Assembly (NCBI GenBank): GCA_024699855.1
Contig: JAMPIQ010000003.1
Span: 3,782,001-3,846,000 of the forward strand
Reading direction: 5' to 3'
Source: Aphelenchoides besseyi
Taxonomy: Eukaryota > Nematoda > Chromadorea > Rhabditida > Aphelenchoididae
DNA: 64,000 nucleotides
Shown piece after piece: positions 28,357 to 32,694 of this stretch; within the stretch, counting starts at the first letter, position 1, and every line of letters starts with the position of its first letter. The notes below the pieces were generated by a model. That model did not search any database and was not told the DNA's origin. It saw only the letters and a program-made list of their open reading frames with translations. The translations under genes and the position numbers were made by a program.

Positions 28357-29182
28357 ATGAAGCCATCCTGTGTTATATTCGACATGGGCGGTGAGCATAG
28401 GTCATTGGAAGCTGAAGATATTTGCAATTTAGGAGTTGTCGTTCGGTTCAAGAATTACGGCCGGTTTGTTGAGTTGCTCAATGAAGGTTGGCTGAATTTT
28501 TATTCACTTTTTAATTCTTGTTTTCAGCACGAAAGGATCCGAAGATCGGAGAAAAGTTTGTTGGTTTCGAGTTAGGAACCGTTTCTGCGGAAGAGATTCG
28601 CGATACATTTCATCGAATATTCCCATTACCGTTAGATGTTAATGTCGATGATTTCGAGAACTCTAAGCTCGACGATTACATGGGCGAACACGTAAAGAAC
28701 TGCAATCAAAACCTAATGGACTGGTTGTTTTCAGGATCCGCACATTGAAAAAGCGATCGAGAAATTGAAAGCCAATGGAATCAAATTGGGTTTGCTGACG
28801 AACAACGGCTATTGGAGTCCAAAAAGAGAACGCACAACGATTCTCGATCACGCCGATGAAATTTTCGATGTGGTTGTTGAGTCGGCTAGGGAGGGAGTTC
28901 GAAAACCGGACCCGAAAATCTACGAGGTGAGACTTAAACGTGGTTTCCTCACTGACTAGCCTATAGATTATGCTCGAACGTATTGGCAAAAAGGCAGAGG
29001 AGTGTGTTTTCGTCGACGATTTGAAGCAAAACGTTGATGCAGCTGCAAGCCTCGGTTTCATCGCAATACACGTAAGCAAAATTGAAAAAGAAATTGTAAC
29101 AAAAAGATTTCAGTTGGCCAATGAAGACAGTGAAGCGGCAGTAAAGAAATTGGAAGAACTACTCGATCTTGATCTGCACTAA
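28357..29182 (+). CDS. HAD-like hydrolase (ACAD10/EPHX2-N type), intact
   Basis: Exons 28,357-28,390, 28,433-28,486, 28,528-28,691, 28,735-28,926, 28,967-29,071 and 29,114-29,182 give 205 residues. Motif I is VIFDMGGVVV, motif II LGLLTNNGYW, motif III RKPDPKIYE and motif IV CVFVDDLKQNVDAAASLG. This is the HAD subfamily found in the N-terminal phosphatase domain of soluble epoxide hydrolase and in ACAD10. It likely acts on a small phosphate ester in the cytosol; the substrate is unknown. AATAAA lies at 29,253. Its 3' end converges on the ShKT-GST gene with a 76-base gap. Four paralogues lie at 27,190, 51,750, 52,944 and 53,916. Confidence 0.85.
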
Positions 29183-29258: not shown

Positions 29259-30482
29259 TTAAATTGGACTATCGGGCGGATCTTTTTTCAAGTACGCTTG
29301 TAATTGAGGCAATGCGTAGACGCTTTCATAGTGTGCTGAAAGAGTCGGATAGGCCGCTAAACTTGCAGCGTCGATTATATCAAAAGTTCGAACCGTTCCA
29401 GCTACATAGAAATCGACCTGAAAATCATGATCGAAAGTAAACTGATAATCTCTTCTTCCTAGTAAATTTACACCCTATACCCCAACACAAACTAAACTGT
29501 TTGAGTCTGCTCAATCAATCCTTTAAAATATTGCTAACACTTCAAGTTCATGAAAGCATCGTCTTTCAACTAACCCAAGAAACAGTTCGGCCGAAGAAAC
29601 CACTTTGTTGTTTTCGCAAGAAATTCTCCATTTTTGGTGCGTATTTTTTTAGAGCCGGCAAGAATTCGGCGTCGTGAATTGCCAGCTAAATAAAAATGTG
29701 AAGAGAATAGGAAACAGGTTTGTTACTTCATCTCCAGGTTCATCACCGTTAGCTACTCGCTTATAATGCAATGTGGCGTCAACGAACTCTCGCCAAAGTT
29801 CAGCGACGTAGTCCAAATATGTAATCTCCATTTCGTTCAAGCCCGAAAGGCCTTAACATTTAATCACCTTTATTAGAAGATTGTCTCAACGAACCCAAAC
29901 GTCGACCTACAAATCGACAAATTGTCATCGATTGCGATATCTTCGTTCCGTCGACTTCCAACAGCGGCAACTGATTGTCGGGATACGCTAAAAAACTGCT
30001 TACAATCCTTAGTTTCCATTTCTTACATGCTTTTTGCGCTGCCCACTGAGCAGCCGTGAGGCGAATGTCTTCGAACGGAACATTTCGATAATGAAACGCC
30101 AAACGTATGGGTTCAGCGCGAAAGCGAATGTCAAAGTACGTCAACTTATAACGCGGATATTGGCTAAAGAATAATCAGATAGGAACATGACGATGACTCA
30201 CAAGATTGGAGCGCCCTGCTTTTTCGTAGCCGATGGTTTCGTAGGTGGTCGTCTCTTTTTCTTCTTAGCTGGTTTTCTTCTACCATTTCCATTAGAAGGA
30301 CCAAAGCAGAATCGACAAGTTCTAGGACAATTGATCTGTAGAGTGCGGGTTAGTGATGGTAGACGACAATAAGAAATAGCACGACTGCACGTTGAAACGA
30401 GGTCCGTGCATGCCGTTTCGACCAATTGCACGAAACTAAGGCTTAGAAGTGAAAAGACTAAAACTGTTGAAAGAAAGTGCAT
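29259..30482 (-). CDS. Secreted ShKT domain fused to sigma-type glutathione S-transferase
   Basis: Six exons (30,482-30,202; 30,163-30,027; 29,987-29,895; 29,851-29,727; 29,685-29,575; 29,417-29,259) sum to 301 residues with all phases matching. Residues 1-23 are a signal peptide. An ShKT domain with six cysteines spaced as the family requires follows (ACTDLVSTC ... INCPRTCRFC). Then comes a very basic linker (RRKPAKKKKRRPPTKPS), a possible proprotein-convertase target. The rest is a complete sigma-type GST: YKLTYFDIR with the catalytic Tyr, NQLPLLEVDG, SQSMTICRFVGR for glutathione binding, and a full helical C-domain. The GST exon has no ATG of its own near its start, and the 38-nt intron before it has a strong GTGAGT donor. 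A separately translated GST would need an unseen start. An extracellular detoxifying or host-interaction role is inferred. Confidence 0.8.
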
Positions 30483-30692: not shown

Positions 30693-32694
30693 TACAGCGT
30701 GTCCCAGCACAACCGGAAGGTTTTGTACGCTTATACCTCGCTTACTTGCAGAACGTTTTTAATGCGGTTTTTTGGATTCGGTAAAAAGACTTGAAGTGTT
30801 TGTTTGGCATCGAGAAAGTCTCCAAACTTGAACGGCTAATGCCAGAAATTTGCATTTTGGCCAAATAACGCAGAATTTGACGTGATTTTCCGATGGTTGA
30901 GGTTCAAATCATTCTCTTTGCACAAAAATGAGTTGGACAAATGAAGAGAAGGCGTTTTGTGCGATCGAATACGCAAAGCCAATGGGTTCGGTCACGGTAC
31001 AGCGAGCTTTCCGACGCCATTTTAACCGCAATGCACGTGCTCCCGTTCCCGCTGCTGCAAGGTTTCCGATTTGGCTTTAGAAGTTCTTGGAGGAAGGAAA
31101 CATCGACAGCAGATCTCGACAGCATTGGAGAAATAGCGCAAGTGAGTGAAGATCTTGTAATTCGATTTCCGTTCGTATATTCAGACTCCTTATCAAACAC
31201 TCTGTCCAACTGATACACATGTCAGCACGGTCGAAACGATGAACACGGAGATCGATCGGCCAATTTTCTCGATCTTGTGCAAGAAACTACCCGAAATGTT
31301 GAAGCAAATTTGTGAGAACTCGGTTTCTTGGTGGTTTCCAGTTCATCTTTGCGATCTGTTTCAAAAACTCGATCCTTCCGTTATCACGATGTTGGGCGAG
31401 CAGATACAACAGTCATCGGGAAGAGAGACAGCAAACTTTGGAGCTGCAGAAACGAGGGTCTTCAACCACAGCGACAGCGTTTGAATGCGGATGAAGATGT
31501 TCGAACCTCAATGATCATCGATTACGGCACAGCACTGCTGGAGTCGTACGATTTTTGGAGCATTCCTACTCTTACGTTTTGAGTTGTGGTGCCGAAAATG
31601 CAACCTACGAACTCGATTCTTGTTTAGTTCGTTTGAGTTTGGACTCAGTGAAGAAGGCCGAGCGATTGTACGTCTTGTCTCTTAAACACGAACAAAAGCG
31701 GTAGTTGCTCGATCGTTGGTTGAAAGGTAAGAATCCTGGGTTTCGAAGTCTGAGCTTTCCATTCAGATATGCGAAAGATGGTCATTACAACGAAGCACTT
31801 TCCTGGGCTCTTCGCTCTGAACTTTCCGATCTGATTAACTTGGTCTCAAACAAAATGCTCTCAACATTCGATGCCAGACCATCAGTCAATTGCGAATCTT
31901 CGACGCAACTTCGACCATGTTCCTCAACTATCCAAATCTGCTTCTTCTCCAACGGTTCTATCAGTTTCGTCGTTTTCTCGTTCGAGGACAAGCAAGCGAA
32001 GGGGCCAGGAAACTTTACGAGTTGGTGACTTCCGAAATGGCACCAAGTGCTTTACAAGTTGTAGTTCGATCAAATGACCAAGTTGTTAGATCCATCCACC
32101 ACGGGTTTCATTCAGGTACGTACTTAGGATTTTGGATTGTAACACTTTGATTATTCAGGTTCCGAATTAGATCGAGACTCAATCTACGATCTAATGAAAG
32201 CGGCCAACAACTTCGAACTTCGAAACGCGATCATTCGTCCGTCCAAAGCAGCTGACAGTCCACACACCGTAGAGTTGCCAACCGGAATTAAGTTTCTTCG
32301 TCCAGCTCTTTGTAGTGGTTCGGCGCTAAGATCGTTGTCGTGAATCGTCTGTTTAAATGATCATATTGTTGTTTTACAAGACTTTTCATGGCGTAAACGA
32401 ACTAAGAATAAAGTTCATGATGCAAGAATATAGTAACCATATGAGTAGCATAAATTGACTTCAACGTTTCCGAGCCACGCCCACTTGTCTTTATTGCATC
32501 TAATGGCACTTGGTCTTGCGTCTTCGCGGTGCAATCTTTCATCGACTTGTTTGGTGCGAGATTTAAGAAAACAAACCATTAAAATGCTCTTTTGTCTTTC
32601 TTTGTAGCACTTTATTCGATAGCTATCTGAGGTAGCGTGTTCAAGCAAACTGTTTTATTATCTCAACACAATTGATATGACCTAAGAACGGAGG
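30693..32694 (+). repeat. Left arm of 2,002-bp inverted repeat
   Basis: This is the reverse complement of 39,097-41,098. Both arms have the same length and no mismatch was found at the positions compared. The arm holds about 415 bases of unplaced sequence, the 3' part of the NUP85 pseudogene and the gap up to the enolase 3' region. Confidence 0.9.
31108..32343 (+). pseudogene. NUP85: NUP85 3' fragment, copy 2
   Basis: It begins abruptly inside an exon at ADLDSIGEIAQ and ends at the TGA at 32,341-32,343. It shares the break after DFWSI with copy 1. It also has its own one-base loss (GTTCCG for GTTCCCG near 32,160) and an A4 run where copy 1 has A3. The 5' half of the gene is missing, so it cannot encode a complete nucleoporin. 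Confidence 0.65.

Follow-up and report, generated by a model that had tools for sequence, protein, structure and literature searches.

We analyzed a 64,000-nucleotide (nt) stretch of Aphelenchoides besseyi DNA, referred to below as the window (contig JAMPIQ010000003.1, positions 3,782,001 to 3,846,000 of the forward strand). Judged from its sequence, a locus on the minus strand of the window (30482-29259) is one gene for a protein in which a ShKT domain and a linker precede a glutathione S-transferase (GST), and it is a member of a four-gene family. The family is a well-supported case of a fusion of two known domains that is conserved within one genus, and it extends the theme of ShKT-bearing secreted enzymes.

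Splicing of the minus strand at GT..AG sites joined six exons of 281, 137, 93, 125, 111, and 159 nt, separated by introns of 38, 39, 43, 41, and 157 nt, into a single frame of 301 residues followed by a stop codon. This reproduced the six-exon, 301-residue frame of the original prediction, an earlier note on this DNA. All its coordinates were correct, as was the 38-nt junction intron that it had placed between the two parts (GTGAGT donor, CTTTAG acceptor, phase TT|C). The protein consists, in this order, of a signal-peptide-like start, a ShKT domain with six cysteines, a basic linker, and a full GST. Pfam matches were found for ShK at residues 25-59 (23.3 bits, cut-off 20.9), GST_N at residues 100-167 (34.6 bits, cut-off 20.9), and GST_C_3 at residues 208-295 (44.6 bits, cut-off 21.6). 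Between the sixth cysteine and residue 98 the linker has 13 lysines or arginines and 7 prolines among 39 residues, and the protein without its signal has a computed mass of about 31.6 kDa. Retention of the junction intron results in an immediate stop (TTG TGA). The prediction had also held that the GST exon is without a start codon of its own, and this agrees with the frame, which traced back opens at a stop within the intron with no ATG. The first methionine past the ShKT domain is residue 160, downstream of the catalytic-type Tyr103.

Genome-wide, 79 matches to ShKT and 35 to the GST part were listed. The two were found together at four places, which are the locus in the window (F1), C3:230k (F2), C3:8823k (F3), and C2:435k (F4), with spliced proteins of 301, 291, 291, and 277 residues, respectively. 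All four proteins have a hydrophobic N-terminus (best 12-mer hydropathy 1.62-3.24), a ShKT domain with six cysteines spaced 6-6-12-3-2 (ending C-x3-C-x2-C), and a basic linker. All four genes, which are located on two chromosome-size contigs, carry a phase-2 junction intron that is 38-41 nt long, and none of them has a methionine between ShKT and the catalytic-type tyrosine. A ShKT-only product is predicted for each of the four if the junction intron is retained. This follows from phase 2 in combination with GTRA donors, and the product need not be used.

Random placement of the 79 ShKT matches is expected to give about 0.005 ShKT-GST pairs within 300 bases, whereas four were observed, and chance adjacency was rejected. 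Among 20 GST genes with the N-terminal region examined (4 fused, 16 others), four had a same-strand ShKT match 90-144 bases upstream. When 17 fetched GST regions were searched for the six-cysteine pattern, ShKT appeared in the four fused genes and in 0 of the 13 other regions. At seven further places, not fetched, where the GST matches were weaker or of another class, no ShKT match was listed within 3 kb. The 16 non-fused GST N-termini are contained in the 13 other regions; 12 of them have an in-frame ATG at the GST start or immediately upstream of it, while none was visible there in four. One of these four, at C3:7374k, resembles another nematode GST class, which has long N-terminal extensions without ShKT; P0103 from B. 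xylophilus and P0114 from Heterodera schachtii belong to this class and gave no Pfam ShK match. When the start of F4 was used as the query for a ShKT donor, 12 matches were obtained, four of which were the family itself, and a clear donor was not found among them. Elsewhere in the genome (L062, C1:16802248 region) a ShKT exon precedes a long open frame in which Glu, Lys, and Ser are abundant.

Three protein searches, in which 2008, 7997, and 7998 candidates were scored, listed 25, 80, and 120 of 179 proteins, corresponding to 192 distinct proteins. The first search found P0001 (A. besseyi), P0002 (A. fujianensis), and P0003 (A. bicaudatus), where P0001 is a 302-residue protein with 89% identity to F1 across 100% of the length. 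A profile of these three and paralogues added P0026-P0032 and P0035, and the third search added P0087. F3 and F4 were letter-identical to P0026 and P0028, while F2 was identical to P0030 except for ten residues. P0030 lacks ten GST-core residues that are restored in F2 by a GC-AG intron, and it looks like a gene-model slip. The fusion was found in public gene models of A. besseyi, A. fujianensis, and A. bicaudatus, all named only GST, prostaglandin D synthase or hypothetical protein; in P0032 both ShK and GST are already marked by precomputed Pfam tags. Of the 192 listed proteins, 12 contained the ShKT domain in full or in part (ten with the full six cysteines, P0002 and P0035 partially), and all 12 are from Aphelenchoides. 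Pfam ShK was above cut-off in P0001, P0002, P0026-P0032, and P0087. None of the other 180 listed proteins, including those from Bursaphelenchus, Ditylenchus, Meloidogyne, and Heterodera, contained ShKT in these word-limited searches, which leave absence elsewhere unproven.

The original prediction proposed a search for ShKT and GST in one protein and was itself aware of no such protein. The search found the combination, among the 192 listed proteins in Aphelenchoides only, and not as a single protein but as a family in at least three species. The architecture is undescribed in the literature that we found; it is, on the other hand, already contained in public gene models, so that it is present in the sequence databases but never named as such. 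In the A. bicaudatus model P0035 a truncated ShKT, a GST, and a C-terminal DUF2650 are joined, and this model probably represents two genes merged by annotation. The tag prefixes M3Y94, M3Y96, and M3Y98 are all filed as A. besseyi (P0030 is M3Y96). Since there are three prefixes and F1 and P0001 differ at about one in ten residues, the name A. besseyi spans more than one lineage.

A maximum-likelihood tree of the GST parts was made from 45 rows and 206 columns, with 13 fused proteins and 32 chosen from the 180 unfused; P0030 and our own F3 and F4 were omitted as duplicates. The 13 fused rows formed a single clade (support 98/90), whose sister (100/96) was the unfused Aphelenchoides GSTs P0033 and P0034. 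Within the clade, all three species are represented in both the F1 group (100/99) and the F2/F4 group (94/91, below the starred level), while the F3 group (100/99) contains proteins from A. besseyi and A. fujianensis. Because the fused GSTs form one clade with groups that each extend across species, the simplest history read from the sequences would be one fusion, after which the genes were duplicated and only later the species split.

The enzyme site of F1 looks intact from its sequence. The catalytic-type tyrosine near the GST N-terminus, whose identity we assume, is Tyr103 in F1 and is present in 12 of the 13 fused proteins. In the loop beside the active site, the same number of fused proteins have a phenylalanine (Phe108 in F1). 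This residue was found in 0 of 149 unfused proteins, these being the ones with a residue at that position among the 158 of 180 that are no longer than 260 residues, and the position is nearly always Gly or Ala in the unfused proteins compared. The loop phenylalanine suggests a shifted substrate range. In the fused A. besseyi protein P0031 the catalytic-type tyrosine, the loop phenylalanine, and the next arginine are all altered. The solved structures nearest to the GST part, which was the only part covered by the structure list, are nematode GSTs of the Nu/sigma-like kind. The designation sigma-type in the original prediction was close to this.

Altogether, the family probably represents a secreted glutathione-dependent enzyme that is docked by its ShKT domain in the surface coat or the secretions. 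An exon with signal peptide, ShKT, and linker would have been placed ahead of an Aphelenchoides GST, which would then have lost its own start codon and been rerouted from the cytosol to the secretory pathway. By analogy with what is supposed for other secreted nematode enzymes, ShKT would most likely be a disulphide-stabilised docking module, and the GST may be anchored by it in the cuticle, in the surface coat or within secretions. The linker would act as a spacer, whose positive charge in two of the species may raise the affinity for acidic polymers. The extracellular GST could conjugate or reduce electrophiles and lipid peroxides met during feeding. A role tied to rice parasitism only is less likely, because A. 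bicaudatus and A. fujianensis also carry the fusion. Fungal feeding is common in Aphelenchoides.

Several observations weigh against a secreted and docked enzyme. The secretion call is based on hydropathy alone, and glutathione is scarce outside cells. The ShKT domain of P0003 scored 14.4 bits for Pfam ShK, which is below cut-off although its six cysteines are complete, that of P0002 is incomplete, and P0035 has only the first part of ShKT and no Pfam ShK match. The ShKT part of the structure model has low confidence (about 50-67). Finally, P0031 has lost the catalytic-type tyrosine, so that one or more copies may no longer be ordinary GSTs.

The combination of ShKT, a basic linker, and an enzyme seems to recur in this genome. 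At L065 (C2:1203067 region) a single open frame runs from ShK (29.9 bits) across a linker into the beginning of M13 (32.0 bits, at cut-off). At L059 (C2:354753 region) a ShK piece (20.0 bits, below cut-off) and an M13 piece (50.5 bits) are found in different frames of the unspliced sequence. Both loci have stretches rich in lysine, arginine, and proline between ShKT and the M13 (neprilysin-like) peptidase sequence, and basic stretches are therefore not special to the ShKT-GST genes. A tentative and rather doubtful extension is that signal peptide, ShKT, and basic linker form a delivery cassette that was reused, being joined to a cytosolic detoxifying GST and separately to M13 peptidase sequence. 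The relocated GST would then have changed its Phe108 loop and multiplied as an enzyme bound to the surface or secretions and directed against plant or fungal chemicals, constituting a new extracellular GST class.

The protein could instead be a pharyngeal-gland effector that is injected into plant cells, with the lysine cluster as a nuclear address and the GST acting inside the host, but this is unlikely. A. besseyi is a plant parasite, the signal-peptide-like start and the clustered lysines fit an effector, and the gland motif of B. xylophilus occurs, with one mismatch, at -45 in F1. However, the exact motif, STATAWAARS, was found within 500 bases upstream in 0 of the 4 genes, P0003 is without a basic linker, and the disulphide-rich ShKT points to an oxidising, extracellular site. 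The motif test is weak, because this B. xylophilus gland promoter motif had 0 exact matches anywhere in the window and is perhaps not valid for Aphelenchoides.

The original prediction suggested cleavage at the basic linker, giving a toxin-like peptide. On this account a precursor would be split within the linker to release a channel-acting ShKT peptide and a free extracellular GST, which we consider quite improbable. In A. besseyi and A. fujianensis the linkers are basic, with many lysines and arginines, and that of P0087 has one furin-type RX[KR]R motif; a ShKT-only product would also arise by intron retention in the four genes, yet as stated this follows from their phase and donors. However, the furin-type motif was found in none of our own four linkers, the F4 linker has no arginine, and the linker of A. 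bicaudatus P0003 has 87 residues with 31 prolines and no lysine or arginine. Conserved cleavage was therefore not supported by the comparison of linker motifs and composition, and the linker is more readily seen as a spacer. As for the peptide, the Lys-Tyr dyad of channel-blocking ShKT domains is presumably located in the loop before the fourth cysteine. No Lys-Tyr pair was found in the Cys3-Cys4 loop of any of our four ShKT copies, which argues against a channel toxin. According to the accessible part of one paper, ShKT peptides from other nematodes can block Kv1.3, and the dyad is termed essential for this block (PMC4974336).

That two neighbouring genes, one for a secreted ShKT peptide and one for a GST whose mRNA receives a trans-spliced leader, were fused by model error is very improbable and was rejected on the missing start codons and the conserved junction: nematodes do use trans-splicing, and the ShKT frame stops at once unless the junction intron is removed, but no GST start codon precedes the catalytic-type tyrosine in the four genes whereas one does show at the GST start in 12 of 16 other GSTs of the same genome, junction phase and order of parts are kept at all four places on both contigs, and the fusion is present in public models of three species.

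Features of the ShKT-GST gene F1 (positions in the window)
Feature	Position	Strand	Basis
Signal-peptide-like start, residues 1-24	30411..30482	-	Hydrophobic 12-mer from residue 7, mean Kyte-Doolittle 2.58
ShKT domain, residues 25-59	30306..30410	-	Cys spacing 6-6-12-3-2; Pfam ShK; genome match C3:3812306-3812410
Exon 1 (signal, ShKT, part of linker)	30202..30482	-	GT..AG splicing
Linker part of exon 1, residues 60 to 94 (94 partly)	30202..30305	-	Splicing and linker composition count
Junction intron, 38 nt, phase 2	30164..30201	-	GTGAGT donor, CTTTAG acceptor, split codon TT/C
Exon 2, GST start with Tyr103 and loop Phe108	30027..30163	-	Splicing, Pfam, loop comparison
Exon 3, GST N-terminal domain	29895..29987	-	Splicing, Pfam
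Exon 4, GST	29727..29851	-	Splicing, Pfam
Exon 5, GST C-terminal domain	29575..29685	-	Splicing, Pfam
Exon 6, end of GST C-terminal domain and stop codon	29259..29417	-	Splicing, Pfam

A convergent neighbour is located on the plus strand at 28515-29182 of the window, with a match to haloacid dehalogenase-like hydrolases in 28717-28956 (37.2 bits, cut-off 26.4). Its last open frame stops 76 bases from the stop codon of the F1 GST. On the other side, an open frame on the plus strand (31161-31484) has a weak match to the nucleoporin Nup85 (18.3 bits, below the cut-off of 22.1).

To our knowledge, GSTs with this fold are seldom found outside cells. A fusion of single origin that apparently exports a GST, and that has survived gene duplication and persists in three species, would be a clear-cut example of how a detoxification enzyme can be relocated. 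The family also provides concrete candidates for how the worm copes with host or fungal chemicals, and its architecture lets annotators separate the fused proteins from ordinary GSTs. A ShKT-GST fusion was not found described in the open literature searched, whose scope excludes subscription journals and preprints and leaves absence from print unproven. The accessible parts of PMC10857297, PMC13273113, PMC6939172, PMC5763927, PMC6062891, PMC4974336, PMC12193031, PMC7349835, and PMC5401880 did not mention one, nor did those of the meeting volumes PMC11406932 and PMC10578804 for the named terms.

The Nu/sigma-like GSTs to which the GST part is most similar (Na-GST-1, H. polygyrus GST2, and Ascaris GST1) begin at the GST, without ShKT and without the loop phenylalanine typical of the fused family. 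Onchocerca GST1 (OvGST1a/b, OoGST1; PDB 2hnl) is a sigma-class GST that is secreted and acts as a prostaglandin D synthase, and in the accessible text it has a 25-residue extension with no ShKT described, whereas the fused family has an N-terminal ShKT (PMC6939172). Onchocerca GST1 is also glycosylated according to the same text (PMC6939172), while F1 has no sequon, F2 one, and F4 two, and by the best structural matches of the fused clade it does not seem to be near that clade. Nematode secreted enzymes with ShKT include astacins, tyrosinases, peroxidases, and M14 peptidases (PMC10857297, PMC5763927). The ShKT-GST family resembles these in having a secreted-looking ShKT joined to an enzyme, but the parts of these papers that were available do not name GST as a partner, and in the ShKT-GST family the ShKT is N-terminal to the enzyme. 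The ShKT proteins MUL-1 of C. elegans are tied to redox defence, and their loss induces GST-4 (PMC13273113, accessible part). There, ShKT stands alone and its link to GST is regulatory, whereas in the Aphelenchoides family the two are actually fused.
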